A DNA stretch of 10,818 bases from assembly GCA_003451645.1 (NCBI GenBank), contig DMER01000111.1:845-11662 (forward strand). Direction: 5' to 3'. The notes beneath the pieces are model-generated. The model saw nothing but the letters and a program-made list of their open reading frames with translations. It did no database searches and had not been told where the DNA came from. Below, piece by piece: positions 1,080 to 10,818 of this stretch; positions within the stretch are counted from its first letter, which is position 1, and each line of letters opens with the position of its first letter. Position numbers and translations under genes: made by a program. The DNA is from Alphaproteobacteria bacterium. GTDB lineage: Bacteria; Pseudomonadota; Alphaproteobacteria; Micropepsales; Micropepsaceae.

Positions 1080-4000
1080 TCAGTCGAGCACCCAAATCTG
1101 AGCCTTTCCACCGTAGGAGGTCGTCACCAAGCGTTTGCCATCGGAGGAGAATTCCAGACCATACACCGCACTATCATGGTTCAAAGTTGCGACGGGTTCG
1201 TAAGTCCCTGTACGCCAAATCTTCACTGTCTTGTCGCGAGACGCCGTCCCGATATAGCGACCGTCTCCGGAAAAGCGGGCTGACAAAACCGCGTCAACAT
1301 GGGCGGAAAGGTGAGCTTTGACCTGGCCGGTCGACACATCCCAGACCTTTGCTGTGCTGTCGGTCGAGGCGCTGAGGATGGTTTTCCCGTCCGGGGAATA
1401 GTGAGCTTGGAGGACAGCCCCTCTGTGACCCTCGAGGGTAGTCTGCAGGGCGCCCGTTCCCGCATTCCAAATTCTTGCGGTCCCATCCCGGGAACCGGTC
1501 ACGAGGGAGAGACCATCTGGAGAGTAAGCCACGGTCAGGACGCTTTCGGTGTGCCCCTTAAGCCAAACCTTTGGATTGGCCGAGAATAAACTCCAGATCA
1601 CGCCCGTCCCATCTGAATGGACTGTCGTCAGCGAGCGTCCGTCAGGAGAAAACTCGGCATCACGTGCGGCACTCGGACCTATGGACCAAGTCGTTTGCGG
1701 TCCAGAGAGAGGCACCATCTCCCCGGTTACCGCGTTCAATAGAGCGAATGCCGTCCTACTATAAGTGTACGCTATAAGAGTGTCCTTTGTTGGAGAGAAT
1801 TCTGCAAATCGTGCAGCATCAATATCACCGAGGAATGAACTTAATAGATTTTCGTACTCAAAATAGCTCAATGAAAGTTTTTTGCGCAACTTGCCGGTAA
1901 CGGAGTCCCAAATGCCGACGGTGCCGTCCTCTGATGTTGTTGCGATCAATTGACCATCAGGGGAGAATTGGGCACTGGTCACGCGCCGCGAATGTCCTTT
2001 GAGGTCAGCTATCATGGCGCCAGTTTGCGTATCCCAAACTCGGGATGAATAGGCGGCCGATACAGTGACAAGCTTTCGACCGTCAGGTGATAGAAGTTTC
2101 TGCCCACGAGCGGCCGAACGTTGCTCCAAAGGTCCCCCCTGCTTGACAACCCGGATCAGATTGACGGCTACCGCTGGTCCAAGCCGGAGAAGCGGAGAAT
2201 TTTCCACATTCATCACCAATGAACCATTGGGGGATTCTCTCTTTGTGACTGCTCTCATTACCGTGCCGTCGTCGCCAATGGCCGTGATCGTTCCATCCCC
2301 GTTGAGCTTCAACTCCCGCGCCCGGCCGGGCAAGCGGATGTCGCTGTCCTCGACGAATTTAGGTTCGCCACTTGCCGGAAACTCGACGATCCGGACACGG
2401 CCATCGAGCGTCGCCACCGCCGCCCGCCTTTGCGGCAAGGCCAACAAGGCGGTCACGGGGCCGGAGTTCCGGATTTCCAGTCCTTTGTCGCCTTCGCCTG
2501 CGGTAACCAATTGATTGCCTGGATCTGTCTCCAAGACCTCAACGTCGAATTTTGAGCCATCGCTCGCTTGCCGGACAATTCTGCCAGCCGTGAACTGTCC
2601 GGGTATCGCTGGCCCAAACACCTTCCATCCATCTTGCGTAGAGCTTAGCACCATGAGGCCAGGTGCGCTGGTGATAAGACTGAGGTTGGGGCGAGGGGTG
2701 CCGCCGGTTTGCTCGTTTGAAGCGGACGAGATTGAGACTTGCATGATTGCCCCGTTTACAGGGGGCGTGAGCAATGGCTCCACATGCAAATTTCTCGTAT
2801 CGAGCAGTCTAACCCGTCCATCCCCGCCGCCCAAGGCAATCCACCGCCCATCCGCGCTCTCGGCCATCGCCGTCACGCCCCCAGGAATGTCGGGCAGGCG
2901 GATGCTGGAGCGCGCCACGATGACTGCCAGCCCGATCGCGGCAGCGGCCGGGATCACAGCGGCGATGGCGCGCAAGGGCAGAACCGCACCCGCCGGCAGC
3001 ACGCGGCGCGCCATGCGCTGCATCGCGGGCCACAGCGCCAAGGGACCGAGCAGCCCCACACCAAAGATGAGTGCGATCACGGGCAACCATGCGCCGGTCA
3101 GCAAGGCGCCGTCACTAGGTTTTGGAATGACCCAATAAGCCGTCGCCGCATAGAGGAGGGCGAGGGCCAGGGCCGCCGCCTCCGGCTTGCTGAGCCAGCG
3201 TGTCCAGCCCTCTGGCAGGATGCGGTTCAGCCAGGGAACCTTGAAATCGCCCGCTTGACCGCGCGCCAGAAAATCCAGCATCACCTCATCGCGCGCCACA
3301 TGATCGGCCATCATCCGGTCGCCGATTGCCTCAAGCCCGATGCGCAGATCGATCCCAGCCGCCGGCGCCGCTGCGGCGGGACCGCGCCGTTCCTCGAACA
3401 ATTTGTTCAAATGGGTTTGGACGCGAGCCGCAAATTCGGGCTCCATCTCCGCGATCAGCGCGACACGCAGCCAATTGGGCATGGTCCCTTCGCGCAGCCA
3501 GGGCAGGCGCGTGAGGGCCGCCACGCGATCCTCCCGGTAGAGCGGTGCGCGCGCCGGATCGCCGCCCGGCTCGGCCGCCAGACTGACGCCCAGATAGAGC
3601 GTCAAATCCCACTGCACCGCCGGATAAACGGCCAGCGCGCACAGCCAATCAAAAGTGGGGCCATCGAGATAGTTCCTCAGCTCACGGATGACCTCTTCGG
3701 CTGGGGTGTCGGAAGGCGGCGCGGCATAGAGCCATTTCTGCGGCGTGACGCGCAGGATCGCGGGGACAGGGCGTGCAAGGCCATCCCCGCCCATGTCCAG
3801 GCGGCGCCCCATCTCCTCATTCTCCAGGCCCAGATTGCGGCCCAAGGATTGCAGGCCCTCCGGCGTCGCGCGGCCGATGGCCATGTTGAGATGGTTGGCG
3901 ATGGCGAATTCGGTGCGCCCCCATTCGGCCAGCGGGCGAGGGGTCAGCATGGTCCGGCGGGTCCAGGTCTTGACCCATTCGGTTGCGGGCCGGGGGCGCT

Positions 4001-5609
4001 GCGTCAGCGGATCGAGAAGCCCGTCGCCAGCGCCCAGGATGATCAGCCTGTGCTCCGGATACCGGGCGGCGAGGTCCTGGATGGCCAGCGGCTTCTTGCC
4101 GTCCTCGGGCTGCAGATGCGAGGGATCGAGCCGGAAGTAGAAGACCTGCGGCGCCGGGAGATAATTGCGCAAACTGCGCAGAAGTTGGCGCAAGCCCTGC
4201 GCCTCCTGGTCCAGCGCATTGCGGCGCTCGATGAGCACGAGATAGTCCGGCGCGCGGCGTGCGGTCTCATAGACCGGGATCACCAACTCCCCGCCCTTGG
4301 CGATCGTCTCGCGAATGGTCGCGTGAACATCGACGCGCTGGGTCGCGGTGATGGTCCGCAGACGGAGTTTTCGGCCCAAGGCCTGAATGGCGCTGTTGGT
4401 TTCGATCGCCCGCATGGCCTCAGGCGCTTTGACGTGCTGATAGTTGGGCTGATAGCGCGGCGGGCGTTGCCGCAGGAACGCTTTGCGGATTGAGAGACGA
4501 TGCCGGAAGGCATAGAGCGCGGCCAGGAGCGGCAAGAGCGCACCGAGCCACGCGGCCCACCACGGCGCGCGCGGGGCGGGATCAGCCTCGGCCCAGGGAG
4601 GGTCTTTGGGATAGCGCCGGATGCGCGGGTCATCCGACATGGCAAAGGCGCGGGCGATTTGCGCGTCTGTTGGTGCCCCAACCCCGGCTGTCAATCGCGC
4701 ACGGGTCTGAGCGAATAGATCCGCGTCGCTGCCGGGCAGGGCGCCTGGAAACCATTGGGGCAATTGCTTCGCGATCCGGGCAGCCGGACCGCGCGGTTCG
4801 CCGGCGGTTCCTAATGCTGTGTTAGCGGCGCGCAGAAGATCACTATAGCTGCTTTCCCGCCCCGGCCGTTCGATCCGCTCCAGTGCCAGCGCAAGGCGGG
4901 CCCAGGTCGCGCCAGAGGGCGTTTGGATGCCGTAAAGGTCCAAGGGCCACGTCTTGGGCAAGGCGGAGAGCTCGTTCAAGCGCACCGCATAGCCGCGCGC
5001 ATCCCATGCAATGGGCGAGGCCTTGGCCAACTCTCGAGCGAGCTCGAGGATCGTCGGCGCGCCGTAATACTTGTCCGCTGCGGTGCGGATGCGGTCGAGG
5101 GATGGGTAATTTGTCTTGGCTTCGGATTGAGGGGTGGCCAGAGCTGCAGGCCCTGTTTGTCTGGACGCCGGTGCCGCGCCGCTCTCAGCGGGCGCCTCAG
5201 GTACAGGCGCGGCTGGCTGCTGTGTGTGCTGCGTCCACAACAGCGCCACGGTGATCACGATGACAACTGCACTAGCAACCAGCCAGGGCCACAGCGGCGG
5301 CTTCGCCAGCGGTGGCTGCGGTGGATCGACCTCGCCGCCGGGACCCTGCAAACCTGCAGGCCGCTGGACGTCATCGAAGGCGCGAAAATAGAGCGCCCGG
5401 TCGTCCGGACTGCGCGCCAGCAATGGCGCCAGCACCGGCCGCAAATCCGCAAAGCGCGTCAAGCCGCCGCGCTCGGCGAGTTCAAATACCAATGTCGTGG
5501 CGAGGATGCGCTCCCGCATCCCGATCTTCAGGCCCTTGACCGCGAGCAGGTCCAGCAAGTGGCCGAGGTGCCGGCCCCACGGCTCCTCTGCGGCCACAGG
5601 CGTGCTCAT
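1080..5609 (-). CDS. Multi-domain membrane protein: CoxE-like N-terminus, degenerate vWA-like domain, WD40 propeller
   Basis: No characterised 1509-residue relative is known to me. Residues 10-85 are helical and resemble the N-terminus of CoxE-type vWA proteins (ending SPDDRALYFRAFDD). Membrane segments are predicted near 107-126, 350-367, 808-828, 838-861 and 877-898. Residues about 400-600 look like a vWA fold (PDYLVLIERRN, HRLIILGAGDG), but the D-x-S-x-S metal site is reduced to Glu461. A helical module follows, with DWLCALAVYP at 654-663, DLTLYLG at 668-674 and LPWLREGTMPNWLR at 702-715. Residues about 905-1509 are WD40 repeats, clearest from 1165 on (SPDGRKLVTVS, GHTESVLTVAYSPDG). The start overlaps the MoxR stop as ATGA, with AAAGG 3 bases upstream of the ATG. 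MoxR AAA+ ATPases usually act with vWA proteins, so the two probably form a complex at the membrane. The 3' WD40 half is clearly more AT-rich than the 5' half. Domain calls are solid for WD40, moderate for vWA-like. Confidence 0.9.
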   Translation of the reverse strand: MSTPVAAEEPWGRHLGHLLDLLAVKGLKIGMRERILATTLVFELAERGGLTRFADLRPVLAPLLARSPDDRALYFRAFDDVQRPAGLQGPGGEVDPPQPPLAKPPLWPWLVASAVVIVITVALLWTQHTQQPAAPVPEAPAESGAAPASRQTGPAALATPQSEAKTNYPSLDRIRTAADKYYGAPTILELARELAKASPIAWDARGYAVRLNELSALPKTWPLDLYGIQTPSGATWARLALALERIERPGRESSYSDLLRAANTALGTAGEPRGPAARIAKQLPQWFPGALPGSDADLFAQTRARLTAGVGAPTDAQIARAFAMSDDPRIRRYPKDPPWAEADPAPRAPWWAAWLGALLPLLAALYAFRHRLSIRKAFLRQRPPRYQPNYQHVKAPEAMRAIETNSAIQALGRKLRLRTITATQRVDVHATIRETIAKGGELVIPVYETARRAPDYLVLIERRNALDQEAQGLRQLLRSLRNYLPAPQVFYFRLDPSHLQPEDGKKPLAIQDLAARYPEHRLIILGAGDGLLDPLTQRPRPATEWVKTWTRRTMLTPRPLAEWGRTEFAIANHLNMAIGRATPEGLQSLGRNLGLENEEMGRRLDMGGDGLARPVPAILRVTPQKWLYAAPPSDTPAEEVIRELRNYLDGPTFDWLCALAVYPAVQWDLTLYLGVSLAAEPGGDPARAPLYREDRVAALTRLPWLREGTMPNWLRVALIAEMEPEFAARVQTHLNKLFEERRGPAAAAPAAGIDLRIGLEAIGDRMMADHVARDEVMLDFLARGQAGDFKVPWLNRILPEGWTRWLSKPEAAALALALLYAATAYWVIPKPSDGALLTGAWLPVIALIFGVGLLGPLALWPAMQRMARRVLPAGAVLPLRAIAAVIPAAAAIGLAVIVARSSIRLPDIPGGVTAMAESADGRWIALGGGDGRVRLLDTRNLHVEPLLTPPVNGAIMQVSISSASNEQTGGTPRPNLSLITSAPGLMVLSSTQDGWKVFGPAIPGQFTAGRIVRQASDGSKFDVEVLETDPGNQLVTAGEGDKGLEIRNSGPVTALLALPQRRAAVATLDGRVRIVEFPASGEPKFVEDSDIRLPGRARELKLNGDGTITAIGDDGTVMRAVTKRESPNGSLVMNVENSPLLRLGPAVAVNLIRVVKQGGPLEQRSAARGQKLLSPDGRKLVTVSAAYSSRVWDTQTGAMIADLKGHSRRVTSAQFSPDGQLIATTSEDGTVGIWDSVTGKLRKKLSLSYFEYENLLSSFLGDIDAARFAEFSPTKDTLIAYTYSRTAFALLNAVTGEMVPLSGPQTTWSIGPSAARDAEFSPDGRSLTTVHSDGTGVIWSLFSANPKVWLKGHTESVLTVAYSPDGLSLVTGSRDGTARIWNAGTGALQTTLEGHRGAVLQAHYSPDGKTILSASTDSTAKVWDVSTGQVKAHLSAHVDAVLSARFSGDGRYIGTASRDKTVKIWRTGTYEPVATLNHDSAVYGLEFSSDGKRLVTTSYGGKAQIWVLD
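1083..2897 (-). repeat. WD40 repeat array (beta-propeller coding region)
   Basis: The last 605 codons of the large membrane protein encode about ten WD-type blades. Each canonical one has a GH near its start, a SPDG turn and a closing DGT-x-x-IW. The best preserved start near residues 1204, 1350, 1392, 1434 and 1476; those between 905 and 1160 are degenerate. Codon use differs between blades, so they are not recent tandem copies. The array probably forms one or two propellers and is the likely ligand- or partner-sensing part. Confidence 0.85.
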
Positions 5610-6637
5610 TTGCCTTTCAGAGTGTTGGTGGCAAAGGTCAGGATGGCCTTTTGGTCGTCGCTGGTCTTGCCCAAAGTGGTGATGGTTTCCAGAACAAGCG
5701 GCGCCAACGCCTGCAGATCGTCACCGGGTTTGGCGTCGCGGATCATCAAAATCTGCAGCCAGTTGATGAACTCGGCCGTGCTGGGCATCCGGTCGAATTG
5801 GATACCGCTCGCCGTTTGCGATCTGAGATCATAGAAAAACCGGACCGCGCTCGCCAGCAGCGTTGAGCCTTCGGCCAGCCCCGCCACACGCATGGCCACG
5901 ATCCGCTCCATATCGGCCTGTGCAGGAAAGTCGATGTGGTAATAAATGCACCGGCGCAGGAACGGCTCGGGCAAGTTCTTTTCCGAATTCGACGTGACGA
6001 TAATAATGGGCCGCAGCTTCGGCGGGATTTCGATCCTGCCGCTGTCCGCGCCCGGCGTGCCGATGTTGCGCAGCTCTGGCACCCGAAAGTAGAGCCGCTC
6101 GATCTCGTTCAGCAGATCATTGGGAAAGTCGCGCGGCGCCTTGTCGACCTCGTCGATCAACACGACGGAGCGCCGCGGCCCGTTGTGCTTGAAGGCGGGC
6201 GCGTCCCCGCCCGGCAGAAAGGCGCGGATGCCCGGATGATCCGCTGCAAAGGCCTCCAAAATGGCGCGGCCCAGCGGCCCATATTCGATGAAGTGCCTGG
6301 GGTCGTACGCCTCGCGCACCTTAAAGGCGGTAAGCGCGTCAAACGTATAGAACAGATCGCGCGCCGCGCTAGTCGATTTGGTCTCGAACTTCAGGACCGG
6401 CTCGGCTTGCAGTTCATGCGCGAGCGCAAAGGCGAGCTGCGTTTTGCCGCAACCGGGCTCTCCCGTCACCAGCAAGGGCATGCCGAGCGTCAGCGCCACA
6501 TTGACCGCATGGCTCAGGCCCTCCGGCACAACATAATTGGCCGCATCGTCCATCTGCGCGCGGTCGAGCGTCGCGATCTCCCGCGCAGGCGTGGAGGGCC
6601 GGTCCGACAATCCTTTGGTGAAATAGGGATAGGTCAT
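5606..6637 (-). CDS. MoxR-type AAA+ ATPase
   Basis: This 343-residue protein is a complete, apparently active AAA+ ATPase of the MoxR group. It has Walker A GEPGCGKT at 59-66, Walker B VVLIDEVDKA at 158-167, sensor 1 TSN at 215-217 and an arginine-finger region FLRRC at 226-230. The sensor-2 area includes PSTAEFINWL at 285-294. MoxR ATPases act as chaperone-like remodelers, typically on a vWA-domain partner encoded next to them. Here that partner is probably the downstream vWA-like/WD40 protein, whose start overlaps this stop as ATGA. The start likewise overlaps the stop of the upstream TIR gene as ATGA, so all three genes are one translationally coupled operon. No membrane segment or signal peptide is seen. 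It is probably the ATP-driven switch between sensor and TIR effector; that role is inferred, the family is not in doubt. Confidence 0.95.
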   Translation of the reverse strand: MTYPYFTKGLSDRPSTPAREIATLDRAQMDDAANYVVPEGLSHAVNVALTLGMPLLVTGEPGCGKTQLAFALAHELQAEPVLKFETKSTSAARDLFYTFDALTAFKVREAYDPRHFIEYGPLGRAILEAFAADHPGIRAFLPGGDAPAFKHNGPRRSVVLIDEVDKAPRDFPNDLLNEIERLYFRVPELRNIGTPGADSGRIEIPPKLRPIIIVTSNSEKNLPEPFLRRCIYYHIDFPAQADMERIVAMRVAGLAEGSTLLASAVRFFYDLRSQTASGIQFDRMPSTAEFINWLQILMIRDAKPGDDLQALAPLVLETITTLGKTSDDQKAILTFATNTLKGK

Positions 6638-8007
6638 GACTGGGCTGCTGTGAGGCCGTTCGCTTGCGTCAGAACGCCCGCCATTTCGGCCGCAAAGAGC
6701 TTCATGGATACTCCCATCTTCCGCTCATTGGCCGCAAACATTTCCTTGAGCGCTGCGTCTGCCCGCTTGGACAAAGGCGCGCCCAATTTTGGCTTGTGCT
6801 CGATTAACCAGTCCCACCCATGATTGGGCAGGATTGGATGCAGAATGGGTGTTATCCTCACCGGCTCCTGCGTTGCACTAGGGGCATTTCGTGCGCTTAG
6901 CCATGGGAAGAATCCTGGCTTCTGAACCGACAACCTCTTGATTTCCCGGAAAACGTCGCGGCATTTCAACCTTGTTTCTGGGATGACAATGTCTGGGCAA
7001 TCTTGCCAACCAGGATCGGCGGCCGGCATTTGGATGCATAGGACTGGTACCGCCCTTAACTCGTGCGTACCGCTTTTGGCAAGCTCCACCCAAAAGCTGG
7101 ACCATGCGCGAATGCGGTTGACATTCTGCGGACACCAACCAGTCATCCCAAAGCAGGTGAAGAGGGCCACTGGTGCTTTAAAGGACGCCAGCTTTTCGCG
7201 AATACTGTCGATGGTCCCTATGTCGAACGCATCAATCTTTTCTCCAACGGACTCCTGAAAGGTTTCCTTGAATTTGCTTACCGGAGTTGTGCCAGGCCAG
7301 TTCGGCCGAAAGACCTCCCATCTTGTCTTCCCAGCATGTTTCGGAATAGTGTAGTTTTCCAAGCGTTCCAAAAATTCATTCAGGCACTCATTTTCAGGTC
7401 CCATTATCATAATCGGCTTAACGCCGGGTTTGTCTCGAACGGTCTGCAGCGCTCTGATAACGGGATTTTCCTGCTCGTCGCGATTGACGAGATAGGGAAT
7501 GAAGGGGTCGATGGAATTCGGCTGCTCAGTCCGATCTCTTGCTTGAGTCTCGGTTTGGCGCTTGATGATGTCTCGGACGTCGTCAATGAAGCACGCTAGG
7601 TTTGTGGCGTATGTGGCCGCCTGGTCCGACCGCAAATCCTCTGCATGATTGCGTTGGTAGAGTGGCAGCAGATTGAGGTCGATGTCATCGATCCGGCAGG
7701 GCGCAATCTTTCCTTGATATGCCGCGATGGCCGCTTCGGAATGCCAGACACCGCGGTTGGCCTCGAGCGCATGCTGTGACCAGCACACGACGACCGCCGC
7801 CGCTTGCTGAAGGCCCAGATGGATATTCTTCTCCCAGTCTTCGCCAGCGCGCAGACGATAAAACTGCGCGTCGATCTCCTTTTTTGAATAGCCCATGTGT
7901 TGGGGCTTATCGAGCCAAACCTTCATGCCCGCCTTGATCAGCGCATCGACGATGGGTTTGATCTTTGCCTTGTCGGCATTGGCGTGGCTAACAAAGACAA
8001 AGGACAT
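6634..8007 (-). CDS. TIR domain protein fused to a degenerate STAND-like (iSTAND-type) domain
   Basis: Residues 1-145 are a TIR domain: MSFVFVSHANADK starts strand A, WLDKPQHMGYS is the loop after strand B, and Glu91 in GVWHSEAA sits where NADase TIR domains carry the catalytic Glu. Residues about 165-395 resemble the inactive-STAND family: entry motif PYLVNRDEQE at 171-180, then PIMIMGPENECLNEFLERL at 198-216 in the P-loop position but without GK[ST], and PVALFTCFG at 279-287 in the Walker B position without acidic residues. The C-terminus (400-457) is helical. A 472-residue reading from a TTG at 8052 is possible, but the ATG at 8005-8007 begins exactly at the TIR fold, and the TTG falls inside an inverted repeat. 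First gene of the operon; its stop overlaps the MoxR start. Likely output enzyme or adaptor of the system. TIR is certain, the iSTAND assignment rests on remembered motifs. Confidence 0.9.
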   Translation of the reverse strand: MSFVFVSHANADKAKIKPIVDALIKAGMKVWLDKPQHMGYSKKEIDAQFYRLRAGEDWEKNIHLGLQQAAAVVVCWSQHALEANRGVWHSEAAIAAYQGKIAPCRIDDIDLNLLPLYQRNHAEDLRSDQAATYATNLACFIDDVRDIIKRQTETQARDRTEQPNSIDPFIPYLVNRDEQENPVIRALQTVRDKPGVKPIMIMGPENECLNEFLERLENYTIPKHAGKTRWEVFRPNWPGTTPVSKFKETFQESVGEKIDAFDIGTIDSIREKLASFKAPVALFTCFGMTGWCPQNVNRIRAWSSFWVELAKSGTHELRAVPVLCIQMPAADPGWQDCPDIVIPETRLKCRDVFREIKRLSVQKPGFFPWLSARNAPSATQEPVRITPILHPILPNHGWDWLIEHKPKLGAPLSKRADAALKEMFAANERKMGVSMKLFAAEMAGVLTQANGLTAAQS

Positions 8008-8045
8008 GCGGAAGGCCTGGGCAATGGCGGGATGCAAGCGACCAT

Positions 8046-8065
8046 AGCGCAACCACAGTTGCGCT
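8046..8065. promoter_or_regulatory. Perfect inverted repeat, candidate operator
   Basis: The arms AGCGCAAC (8046-8053) and GTTGCGCT (8058-8065) are exact reverse complements around a 4-base spacer CACA. A 20-bp dyad of this shape, centred 49 bp upstream of one TIR start and 95 bp upstream of the other, is typical of a dimeric repressor site. No regulator gene is present in the window to pair with it. Confidence 0.5.
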
Positions 8066-8084
8066 GACTAGGCCTTGCATTTGC

Positions 8085-8096
8085 CTTGGGCCCAAG
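8085..8096. promoter_or_regulatory. Perfect 12-bp palindrome CTTGGGCCCAAG, candidate operator
   Basis: An uninterrupted 12-bp palindrome lies 20 bases from the dyad at 8046-8065, nearer the right-hand TIR gene. It could be a second operator half of a shared control region. Short GC-rich palindromes also occur by chance, so the case is weaker than for the longer dyad. Confidence 0.3.
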
Positions 8097-8150
8097 ATTT
8101 TCTGGCCCTCTCCAATCCAGGCGGACACCGCGAGCGGGAGTGGCCTAGCC

Positions 8151-10178
8151 GTGTCTTATGTTTTTGTTTCATACGGCCGCAAAGATTCGGATCGTTTGCG
8201 TCCCGTTGTCGACGCGCTCATTGCCGCGGGATTGAAGGTCTATCTCGACCGGCCCCAGGACCTGGGTTATTCCGATGCGGAGGTCGCGCGCCATTTCGTG
8301 CCCATCCGCGCGGGCTCCGACTGGCGGCACCAGGTGTCGGAAGCAATTGAAGACTCAGCGTGTGTCCTCGCCTGCCTCTCAAGCCGCTCCCAAAGCTCGC
8401 GCTTCTTCGAAGCCGAATGGAGAATGGGTGCTGATAAAGGAAAACTCTTCCTTTGTGCTTTTGACGACCTTCGCATCGAGGACTTGCCGTCGGCAATACA
8501 GAGCTATCATGTTTACGATGTTCGCGATCCACGCGACCTGTTCAATTTGGTTGAAGGTATCCGACAGAAATGTGAGGCGCATCGCCTCGCACACCCCGAG
8601 GCGATGGATACTAGGAGAGAAATAGAAAATGATACGAACAGAAGGGTTCAACGTTTAGCTTACTATGTCTTAATTATTTCGGCAATTATCGGCCTGACTT
8701 CATTAATATTCGTAGCGCAAGTGTTGTACGATGTTTTGAAGACAACTGAAGAGATCGTGACAAACGCATCTAATTTATTTGATCAGTATTCCATAAGTAA
8801 AACTGAGTTCTGGGTCGCTGTTATCTCAGCGTTGATCGCACTTGGGTCAGTGGTGCTAATTCGGCCAGGCCGGCTGGATCGTATTCGCGCCGTCCTGGGA
8901 AACACTAGGGAAACGATCTCGTCTGCTTGGATGGCGCTGACTTCCCGCCAAAACACCGGATTGCGCAGCGCTAAGTCGGTCGCATCATCGATTCGGGCCT
9001 TCTTCGCGAATTCGGCAGCCGCCCACTGGACCGGCCGCGTGCTCATGCCCGTGTTGGGCATTTATGCCGGTTTGGGGCTGGCGGTTTATGGCTTGGCGCT
9101 TCTGGCGCGCTGGGAGGAGATGCCGCGCGCGCCGCGCCCCTTGCCCGCGATTGCGGGCGCAGCCGTGGCGGGCCATGACGCGCCGCTGGTCTCCGCCGAT
9201 CAGGCCGTGGCGGCGGGCGGGGTAATTACCTCCGCGCAGGATGGCTCGGTCCGCTGGACCAGCACCACGGCCATCGCCTGGTTTGACATGAGCTGGGCGG
9301 AGCGCCTGGCAGACAGCGCCTATCGCGACCTCTGGCGGCCTTATGGGCTGCCCGTCGCGCAAATGGCGAGACGAGTCGTGGACGATATTGAAGCGTATTC
9401 GAATCGCTCAAACTCGCTAAGGGAAATGGCAGACCCTGGCACTTTATCCACACCTAGCGGGTCTAAGCGGGAACTTGAAGAAATTCAAGGACTCCTAATC
9501 TTGCGAGAAAGGTCAGTCCGGGATTTGGCATACAATCTCAAAAAGCAAACTTATACATTGCAAAGAGTAATAGAAGAGGTTCGGAATACTGAAGAAAGGC
9601 TGCGCTTTAGCAGCGTAAAAATCGCGCAAGGAGACCTGGAGGATGGCATAAAAGATTACCTATACAGTCTCGATATTGCGCTGAGAAATAAGGACGAAAT
9701 GATTAGGCTGATGAAACAAATTGCATTCTTCAATTTCGAGATTCGTAAGGAAAAAGTTTACCTCGACGCATTACGAGCACGGGTCTCAGAAAACCTTAGA
9801 ATTGCGCGCCAAAGCGCCAAATCCCTTGGCACAACTGAAAGCGAACGCCGCGTTTCCATCGCACTTGACGCTGTCGCACGCATCGAGCGGGCCCATCTCG
9901 ACCTAAAGGCGCTTGAGAAGGCCTCTGCCGAGGTCGATGGCACACTCCGAAAAATACAGGCCATGCAAACAGCGTCGATGGCCGAGGAAGATCTCGCGCT
10001 AGCGCTCGCGAGACGGGCGGAGTCGGCGCTAGAGGAGAACAACCTGGCTGTTGCTTGCTCAGTTTTGGCAAAGGCGCGCGCCCGCGCCAAAATCGAACCT
10101 GACCGCAGCGGCACGCCGGGAGCGAAAACGACCTCCGATTATCTCGAAACGCTTGTCCGCCGCGCAAAGTGCAATTGA
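8151..10178 (+). CDS. Membrane-anchored TIR protein with coiled-coil C-terminus
   Basis: Residues 1-140 form a TIR domain paralogous to the one encoded divergently: MSYVFVSYGRKDSD, VDALIAAGLKVYLDRPQ, LGYS and IRAGSDW all align. Glu89 in FFEAEW aligns with the catalytic Glu of the partner. Three membrane segments follow (about 169-192, 218-237, 296-320). After the last comes a lone WD-like blade (AGHDAPLV, then SAQDGSVRW at 361-369), then long charged helices from about 435 to 640, probably coiled coil. With the TIR domain inside, three segments put the C-terminal half in the periplasm. The start is GTG at 8151, right before the TIR fold, with GGGAG ten bases upstream. The SLOG-like gene follows after 39 bases on the same strand. 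Base composition swings from about 35% GC near 9541 to about 82% at 9121-9180, so the gene looks assembled from pieces. Role: probable effector or signal generator; the C-terminal function is unknown. Confidence 0.9.
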   Translation: MSYVFVSYGRKDSDRLRPVVDALIAAGLKVYLDRPQDLGYSDAEVARHFVPIRAGSDWRHQVSEAIEDSACVLACLSSRSQSSRFFEAEWRMGADKGKLFLCAFDDLRIEDLPSAIQSYHVYDVRDPRDLFNLVEGIRQKCEAHRLAHPEAMDTRREIENDTNRRVQRLAYYVLIISAIIGLTSLIFVAQVLYDVLKTTEEIVTNASNLFDQYSISKTEFWVAVISALIALGSVVLIRPGRLDRIRAVLGNTRETISSAWMALTSRQNTGLRSAKSVASSIRAFFANSAAAHWTGRVLMPVLGIYAGLGLAVYGLALLARWEEMPRAPRPLPAIAGAAVAGHDAPLVSADQAVAAGGVITSAQDGSVRWTSTTAIAWFDMSWAERLADSAYRDLWRPYGLPVAQMARRVVDDIEAYSNRSNSLREMADPGTLSTPSGSKRELEEIQGLLILRERSVRDLAYNLKKQTYTLQRVIEEVRNTEERLRFSSVKIAQGDLEDGIKDYLYSLDIALRNKDEMIRLMKQIAFFNFEIRKEKVYLDALRARVSENLRIARQSAKSLGTTESERRVSIALDAVARIERAHLDLKALEKASAEVDGTLRKIQAMQTASMAEEDLALALARRAESALEENNLAVACSVLAKARARAKIEPDRSGTPGAKTTSDYLETLVRRAKCN

Positions 10179-10217
10179 ACCCAACAACCCAGCCAGCTCA
10201 CCAACTAAGGCCAACCC

Positions 10218-10818
10218 ATGCCCGCCATCACCCCCACTGACGCCCGGCCGCAAATGACCATCCGCGTTGGCGTCTCCGGCCATCGCAGCTTTGCCGACCC
10301 CGCCGCACCCGAGCGTATCCAGAAGACCATAAAGCGCATCCTTGCGGATTTGCGGGCCGCGCTAACCGCCACCCACGCGCTTGCGCGCAGCGCCATCCCC
10401 CGCCCGGTGAAAAATTCGCCCACGGACGAAGAGAGGCGCCTGATCCAGGCGGCCGAAAACCTGAAAGCGGCGGCGCAGATCTATTCCGATCAGCAGCCCC
10501 CCCGCCTGGCCGTCTTGTCGCCCCTGGCCGAGGGCGCCGACCGCCTGGTCGCGGAGGCGGCGCTGGCGCAGGGCGCCTTCGCGCTCCAATTGGGCTTGCG
10601 CCTCAACGGTGAACCGGGTCCACGGGATGGCTTCCAGCCGGGCCCGAGGAATGGGTTTGCTCGTCAGTTCGCAAACACCGTAGGTGCCGCGCTCGATGCG
10701 CTTCAGTGCTTCTTCAATCTCATAGACGGCGTCTTGATCCGACGAGAGCAGGCTGAGCGCGAAATCACGATCGAAATTGTCCGTGCCGGAATCCGCCATG
10801 TGCAGGCTGTAACCGGGA
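10218..10818 (+). CDS. SLOG-like nucleotide-binding protein, N-terminal part; frame open to the right edge
   Basis: The frame starts at ATG 10218 with AAGG seven bases upstream. It opens with TIRVGVSGHRSF at residues 14-25 and continues to LAVLSPLAEGADRLVAEAAL at 97-116. A glycine-rich G-x-S-G-H-R turn plus S-x-L-A-E-G-A-D-R is the pattern of SLOG (DprA/LOG-type Rossmann) proteins often found beside TIR genes; these bind nucleotides or their derivatives. A second possible start is the Met at residue 13. Family-like sequence stops near residue 120 (about 10578). Beyond it the frame stays open to the edge only as the antisense of a DksA/TraR fragment, so the last 80 residues are probably not real SLOG protein. 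It is the likely second gene of the right-hand operon. In Thoeris systems a SLOG domain senses a TIR-made signal, which makes a similar role here plausible but unproven. Confidence 0.65.
   Translation, partial: MPAITPTDARPQMTIRVGVSGHRSFADPAAPERIQKTIKRILADLRAALTATHALARSAIPRPVKNSPTDEERRLIQAAENLKAAAQIYSDQQPPRLAVLSPLAEGADRLVAEAALAQGAFALQLGLRLNGEPGPRDGFQPGPRNGFARQFANTVGAALDALQCFFNLIDGVLIRREQAEREITIEIVRAGIRHVQAVTG
10560..10595. other. Head-to-head junction between SLOG-like and DksA/TraR coding sequences
   Basis: Left of this point the plus strand carries SLOG family sequence (LVAEAALAQG). Right of it the minus strand carries DksA family sequence (VEAQAQLEREG). Both are intact up to about 10575, so two converging genes are joined inside their coding parts. 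The exact base cannot be set because both readings tolerate the same short stretch. No transposase, target duplication or inverted repeat is visible at the joint. Confidence 0.7.
10573..10818 (-). pseudogene. DksA/TraR family protein fragment, both ends missing
   Basis: The minus strand from the right edge encodes GYSLHMADSGTDNFDRD, then YEIEEALKRIERGTYGVCEL and PIPRARLEAIPWTRFTVEAQ. This is the core of DksA/TraR-type proteins, which bind RNA polymerase through its secondary channel. The Met read from 10799 is internal: PGYSLH before it is also family sequence, so the gene starts beyond the window. Only one Cys of the zinc-finger C4 set is left (in GVCEL), as is common in DksA-like proteins of the Planctomycetes-Verrucomicrobia group, which this resembles most. 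Family resemblance ends around AQLEREG (about 10575). The frame then runs on to 10362, but only as antisense of the SLOG gene. It therefore appears cut at its 3' end by the joint described separately. Family firm; whether broken in the cell or by assembly is open. Confidence 0.85.

Follow-up and report, generated by a model that had tools for sequence, protein, structure and literature searches.

Kaur et al. 2020 (PMC7159879) predicted a class of iSTAND MoxR-vWA ternary conflict systems, and the sections of that work dealing with them treat the end of the vWA protein as an effector. For lectin-bearing targets, the relevant passages of PMC10907252 propose that this end acts as a sensor, and some such ends are already predicted there to be periplasmic. 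Searches of the accessible text of the open-licence literature brought up no experiment on an iSTAND system. Here, we analyze a window of 10,818 nucleotides (nt), i.e., the whole stretch of DNA under study (C136:845-11662), from an alphaproteobacterial genome of 255 contigs that is 83% complete. A first-pass annotation had read five of its genes as one compact conflict unit with an undescribed gene set. Judging from sequence, the minus-strand arm, which encodes a TIR-iSTAND protein (P0003), a MoxR-type ATPase (P0002), and a membrane vWA-like-WD40 protein (P0001), is probably (roughly 70%) an iSTAND-type MoxR-vWA ternary conflict system of the abortive-infection type, in a membrane-spanning form. 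The proposal of a predicted MoxR-vWA-centered conflict system was thus borne out for this arm, with the TIR-iSTAND protein as third component, while Kaur et al. 2020 (PMC7159879) had already described the three-gene set as their subsystem 2. The plus-strand arm, comprising a TIR protein with three transmembrane (TM) segments (P0004) and a SLOG-like gene, is considered further below.

The assignment to the iSTAND type follows from the combination of a gene set of the described class, Pfam matches to iSTAND and MoxR, a weakly supported vWA-like fold, and a CoxE-like N-terminus. A sequence check confirmed all five reading frames, their strands, and both 4-base ATGA overlaps (5606-5609 and 6634-6637). 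As read from its sequence, P0003 joins a TIR domain, in which a Glu is conserved, to a STAND-like domain lacking a P-loop. TIR_2 and iSTAND were its only Pfam matches at E-values up to 1, with no VMAP and no TPR/propeller domain, and the iSTAND match (PF19995) scored 24.7 bits vs a Pfam cutoff of 24, compared to 25.7–85.4 bits for the relatives scanned. The ATG start at 8007 is consistent with the MSFVF start in relatives. Glu91, at the position of the catalytic TIR residue, was invariant across six aligned TIR-iSTAND sequences, P0003 included, and a Glu of P0004 aligns with it. A motif search found no P-loop GxxxxGK[ST] in P0003, with GPENEC at residue 203 in its place. In a Foldseek search, the best match was the plant TIR-NLR RPP1 (E = 3.8e-7), and the AbTir TIR domain was matched at 3.7e-4; a PDB sequence search with the TIR-iSTAND profile gave three weak TIR matches.

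The sequence of P0002 is that of a MoxR ATPase with intact Walker motifs: Walker A (GEPGCGKT) lies at residue 59, Walker B is also present, and the P-loop is canonical without TAKS. Residues 1-50 contain no W, hence no VMAP-type WxhapG motif, and the protein is 58.5% identical over 335 amino acids (aa) to the MoxR of a syntenic Hyphomonadaceae locus. P0001, in turn, is by its predicted features a membrane protein with a CoxE-like N-terminus and a degenerate vWA-like core. Its earlier label as CoxE/vWA-like held for the N-terminus and, with weak support, for the fold, the vWA domain of NorD being the best, weak fold match to the core; the metal site looked degenerate by eye. Nothing useful came from a PDB sequence search with the vWA profile.

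Next, we evaluated how widely this arm is conserved. The vWA-like core was sporadic, being found in 1 of 96 genomes of the same family, in 3 of 60 genomes of the family of the Hyphomonadaceae genome G476 (itself included), and in 4 of 72,556 plasmid records. Across the class, 22 of 385 genomes gave a match, the full core occurring only in the source genome; 19 of the other 21 matched the CoxE-type N-terminus alone (profile positions about 7-109), and both of the two such matches inspected were CoxE-like vWA genes, one of them directly after a MoxR gene. Few candidates were scored per genome (for the vWA core ≤2 in the class, ≤8 in the same family, and ≤14 in the family of G476; for SLOG ≤3), so that misses are soft. 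Overall, these searches yielded nine loci, eight with readable flanks (the contig of G490 ends within the gene), and in all eight the gene immediately upstream of vWA encodes MoxR. The gene preceding MoxR carried iSTAND at or above the Pfam cutoff in five of them (the window, the first copy in G476, Nostoc, Azospirillum, and Cylindrospermopsis) and matched it at 19.6 bits, under the cutoff of 24, in Haliscomenobacter, while Pfam found no iSTAND there in G507 or in the second copy of G476.

Close relatives of the TIR-iSTAND protein were few: four besides itself in a word-based protein search and one locus in a scan of genome contigs. No full-length TIR-iSTAND was found among 60 relative genomes, and none was matched in plasmids; in viral contigs, a pattern matched five stretches, none of them a relative. 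A PF19995 scan of the 385 genomes of the class gave three matches, two above the cutoff, with that of the source genome among them. Since this model is weak for the present branch, its absence in genomes tells little.

As described in the relevant sections of Kaur et al. (PMC7159879), subsystem 2 is alike in its TIR-iSTAND protein, in a MoxR without the VMAP-type N-terminal motif, and in a vWA protein with a CoxE-like N-terminus, TM segments, and a variable C-terminus. It is unlike P0001 in that the latter has two TM segments before and three after the core (2+3, with relatives mostly 2+7), a predicted periplasmic C-terminus, and a degenerate vWA-like core. The modules listed there for this subsystem include PEGA, OmpA, PASTA, and Sel1, and the wall hydrolases of the present relatives are not among them. 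The beta-propeller ternary system (subsystem 4; PMC7159879) shares a divergent vWA with a C-terminal propeller (WD40 in P0001), but the third component here is an iSTAND rather than a TPR/propeller protein, and MoxR lacks the GXXXTAKS motif, which is frequent although not constant in that system. We rejected this subsystem, as the third gene encodes TIR_2 and iSTAND only and the MoxR P-loop, GEPGCGKT, is without TAKS. The VMAP subsystem was likewise rejected, for lack of VMAP in P0003 (Pfam, E up to 1) and of an N-terminal W in MoxR. Finally, the DGR-diversified MoxR/STAND sensors (DGR, diversity-generating retroelement), as presented in the passages on them in PMC10907252, are alike in FGE/CLec-ended vWA or STAND proteins, in TIR/trypsin partners, and in some ends predicted to be periplasmic, whereas the present member ends in WD40.

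Relative to the known class, what appears new is a vWA component that is a membrane protein with a hypervariable C-terminus predicted to be periplasmic. To describe its layout, we used residues 360-860 of P0001 as core query, which returned 100 relatives; 90 proteins including P0001 entered the TM survey, and 11 of 101 were dropped for an incomplete core match. TM segments were counted with a hydropathy scan of our own rather than with a trained predictor. Two segments preceded the core in 71 of the 90 proteins, and seven followed it in 42, six in 16, one in 9, two in 6, five in 5, none in 5, and other numbers in 7. Among the 74 proteins with a C-terminal tail ≥200 aa, the number after the core was odd in 51, even in 20, and zero in 3. 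All 20 even-count proteins carried marginal extra segments (exactly one in 12, which would turn the count odd, and two in 8). Of the seven-TM proteins, 38 of 42 had more K/R residues on the predicted inner than on the outer side, as had 55 of the 59 proteins with an odd count but only 9 of the 20 with an even one (>2 TM segments), and the charge pattern of this last group reads as if one segment had gone undetected. With two segments ahead of the core and an odd number behind it, we infer that both the loop between the first two and the variable module at the C-terminus (WD40 in P0001) would face the periplasm.

The C-termini of the P0001 relatives proved hypervariable. In precomputed Pfam annotations, for which counts are minima, the 100 relatives carried FGE (at least 27), M23 (at least 10), OmpA (at least 9), caspase (at least 9), and trypsin (at least 4) domains, along with GH19, GH25, SleB, Amidase_3, S11, CHAP, DUF900, subtilase, Sel1, and PEGA; domains of peptidoglycan-hydrolase families occurred in at least 15. 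Domain positions lend independent support to the predicted layout: a wall-hydrolase domain followed the TM run in nine of the ten relatives with a checked position, and in the remaining one, P0031, a SleB domain sits between TM1 and TM2. P0029 combines in one polypeptide the MoxR-partner core, an S11 D-Ala-D-Ala carboxypeptidase (motifs SxxK, SxN, and KTG present), a degenerate M23 without HxH, and an amidase. By eye, the catalytic residues of this Amidase_3 domain seem to be present; next to a motif-less M23, it recalls the EnvC-amidase pairing. WD40 domains lie between TM1 and TM2 in P0061 and in the second copy of G476 (L053:4945-15604), a locus with a TIR fragment, MoxR in two frames, and a 1697-aa vWA protein bearing the loop WD40 and a C-terminal TIR. 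This TIR stands behind six TM segments (even) with a positive flank, and the vWA-core protein of G507 (L058:6127-8985) ends in a Tle1-like phospholipase (PF09994, 2.4e-37) behind no TM segment. In the second copy of G476, the vWA gene is also followed by a gene whose WD40-containing product matches muramidase twice (PF11860, 1.5e-58).

Taken across relatives, this would amount to a trans-envelope immune switch: a 2+7-TM MoxR-vWA protein, with TM parity tracking the compartment of its module (an odd count with peptidoglycan hydrolases, an even count or no segment with TIR and phospholipase), may couple cytosolic TIR-iSTAND sensing to periplasmic self-lysis or sensing. We give this tentative generalization slightly less than even odds. 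Weighing against it, the FGE-ended protein of G490 counts six TM segments, 4 of the 14 wall-hydrolase relatives counted are even, and caspase-bearing relatives are odd in five of nine, with the caspase behind seven segments in P0014, P0061, and P0071.

By analogy, the cytosolic vWA core would dock on the MoxR ring, and a trigger at the propellers or the iSTAND domain would lead MoxR to remodel the vWA protein across the membrane. The TIR-iSTAND protein would assemble next and its TIR would cleave NAD+, with P0004 perhaps recruited through contact between the TIR domains; where a relative bears a wall hydrolase, this switch would free or activate a periplasmic lysin. MoxR remodeling, NAD+ cleavage, P0004 recruitment, and the direction of signaling are all what we infer rather than observe. 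For the member studied here, we favor outside-in signaling with the TIR as output, although our confidence falls somewhat short of even; inside-out signaling, with the periplasmic part as effector, we deem a little less likely. Overlapping with the outside-in option and compatible with it, the vWA C-terminal module could serve purely in sensing or in anchoring to the wall and have no effector role, leaving the N-terminal TIR as sole output. We regard this as less likely than not: WD40, FGE, and OmpA are binding-type modules, the M23 catalytic motif is missing in 5 of 10 M23 domains, and the idea lies close to the proposal for lectin-bearing targets in the passages cited above (PMC10907252), but the other five M23 domains are intact, P0029 has carboxypeptidase and amidase domains with motifs, and the G507 protein ends in a phospholipase-like domain. 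If the trans-envelope switch holds, MoxR-vWA immune systems would be more than cytosolic threshold devices, with one branch that spans the inner membrane and can direct wall-cutting enzymes, lectin-like domains, or propellers to the periplasm, and whether the variable end senses or kills would become directly and cheaply testable.

The first-pass annotation had instead grouped both arms into one five-gene conflict system; in such a system, SLOG would make or sense a nucleotide signal. The layout is indeed compact and divergent, with P0004 and SLOG 39 nt apart and the divergent starts separated by 143 nt. A scan of this 143-nt interval, which had been suggested to hold a shared promoter region, found no promoter-like site, sigma-70-like sites included. 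P0004 may bridge both arms: its TIR was nearest by BLAST to six TIR-iSTANDs (80-97 bits, next 59), scored 113.8 bits with the TIR-iSTAND profile vs 41 bits for the next match outside TIR-iSTAND (61 genomes), and has a GYS..E..F insert in common with TIR-iSTAND TIRs that is missing in most other TIRs compared. In the Hyphomonadaceae locus L004, the corresponding position is also taken by a divergent TM-module gene that resembles the central part of P0004 (36.6% over 71 aa, E = 1e-4). We lean toward viewing P0004 and the TIR-iSTAND protein as a matched adaptor pair, comparable to the effector-associated domains of Kaur et al. Counting against P0004 as a link between the arms, a 15-sequence TIR tree placed it with P0011 and SLOG-linked TIRs (support 0.77), not as sister to the TIR-iSTAND TIRs. 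The predicted N-in, C-out orientation of P0004 draws on the K/R counts of its loops, 2 vs 10.

Neighborhoods of SLOG relatives make the five-gene system improbable. The intact SLOG paralogue from the same contig matched 11 of 385 genomes of the class, and we inspected its surroundings in seven besides the source genome (G128, G179, and G388 were left out; the stretch of G254 is a 6.7-kb contig). MoxR, the vWA core, and full TIR-iSTAND were absent from the fetched stretches around SLOG in all seven, whereas the vWA core was accompanied by MoxR in each of the eight readable loci; within this coverage the arms occur separately, which the first-pass annotation had named as grounds for refuting its proposal, and all five genes were seen together on the source contig alone among the loci inspected. 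A TIR gene directly follows SLOG in G254 and G342, the latter encoding a TIR-WD40 protein with TM segments; in our own reading, for which there is no published name, these are SLOG-TIR pairs, i.e., a SLOG-TM gene and then a TIR gene, with no MoxR-vWA core in the stretch. In G105 (L081:3327-6259), a SLOG-TM gene lies beside a patatin-like phospholipase gene (PF01734, 1.8e-23) with no MoxR match in the stretch, and the remaining four neighborhoods held nothing telling by eye. On the source contig itself, SLOG twice precedes a TIR-nSTAND1-FGE gene (L003:2574-5825 and L003:12466-15219), the second copy named by Pfam and the first, which holds N gaps, by eye. SLOG with TIR-nSTAND1-FGE looks like a separate, neighboring module of an apparent defense island, and a domain-by-domain reading can fuse such adjacent modules into one seeming system. 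The two TIR-nSTAND1-FGE genes also resemble the STAND-lectin sensors of multicellular bacteria.

Least probable is that MoxR and vWA form an ordinary CoxD/CoxE- or NorQ/NorD-like chaperone pair maturing an envelope enzyme, with an incidental TIR fusion: the CoxE-like N-terminus and the fold match to NorD would suit it, but the gene before MoxR bears TIR, trypsin, or CHAT in relatives, the widely varying C-termini better fit conflict systems, and the next Pfam-named genes of the window encode a photolyase and an O6-methylguanine methyltransferase-like protein.

The SLOG-like gene is itself incomplete in the window. Its putative name is based on sequence motifs; Pfam gave no match for the window piece (E up to 1) or the intact paralogue (E up to 0.001), and a PDB sequence search gave none. 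The 5′ part is 29% identical over 106 aa (E = 1e-5) to the N-terminus of the paralogue. From about 10575, the frame runs antisense to a DksA/TraR-type gene, followed by 15 N, and SLOG sequence resumes past this gap. In the paralogue, 29 residues separate the start of the motif LAEGADR from that of EYKRDF, which leaves room for few missing residues and not for some 80 foreign ones. Positions from about 10575 to 10818 are thus most probably chimeric sequence at a scaffold edge, and the SLOG gene as originally read beyond about 10575 was rejected on both grounds. No second copy of the dksA-like stretch was found in the source genome, at its 83% completeness. All features are listed in Table 1.

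Table 1 Features of the window, with positions counted from its first nucleotide.
Feature	Position	Strand	Basis
Membrane vWA-like-WD40 protein P0001, 1509 aa	1080..5609	-	Pfam WD40 5e-54
WD40 region of P0001, predicted periplasmic	1086..2063	-	Pfam WD40 5e-54
TM3-TM5 (odd number) of P0001, residues 811-899, with the C-terminus predicted outside	2913..3179	-	Hydropathy, charge
Conserved vWA-like core of P0001, residues 370-810, predicted cytosolic	3180..4502	-	
TM1 (106-124), predicted periplasmic loop, and TM2 (350-368) of P0001	4506..5294	-	Hydropathy, charge
CoxE-like N-terminal region of P0001, residues 8-105	5295..5588	-	Profile of relatives matches CoxE-like vWA N-termini
MoxR-type AAA+ ATPase P0002, 343 aa	5606..6637	-	AAA_5 1.6e-9; ATGA overlaps with both neighbors
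TIR-iSTAND protein P0003, 457 aa	6634..8007	-	TIR_2 2e-15; iSTAND 24.7 bits (Pfam)
Inactive STAND of P0003	7081-7497	-	Pfam iSTAND
TIR of P0003	7624-7998	-	Pfam TIR_2
Divergent intergenic region, 143 nt	8008..8150	.	
TIR-3TM protein P0004, 675 aa, GTG start, charged C-terminal region	8151..10178	+	TIR_2 2e-13
TIR of P0004	8160-8525	+	Pfam TIR_2
TM segments of P0004	8667-8723, 8805-8861, 9051-9107	+	Loop K/R counts 2 vs 10; predicted N-in, C-out
5′ part of SLOG-like gene; continues past the window after chimera and gap	10218..10574	+	
Probable assembly chimera: antisense DksA/TraR-type gene, then N gap	about 10575..10818	.	zf-dskA_traR 1.4e-7

The contig contains several N gaps (C136:224-411, 603-844, 11663-11677, 12661-12916, and others), and further joins may therefore be wrong too. 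For P0001, P0003, and P0004, the clusters comprise two contigs each, the longest of 73,113 bases compared to 28,140 bases for the source contig, and this longer second contig argues against the genes being an assembly artefact. PADLOC gave only partial matches on the locus. Adjoining the system, at 3-812 of the window, are a photolyase gene (Pfam 8.2e-31) and the O6-methylguanine methyltransferase-like gene (Pfam 1.5e-8). Between the two TIR-nSTAND1-FGE genes, L003:6331-12365 holds further genes of the island: one with a protein kinase domain (Pfam Pkinase 1.4e-21) and, as recognized by eye, an FHA and trypsin-like frame, TPR-like frames, and an IS5-like transposase frame.

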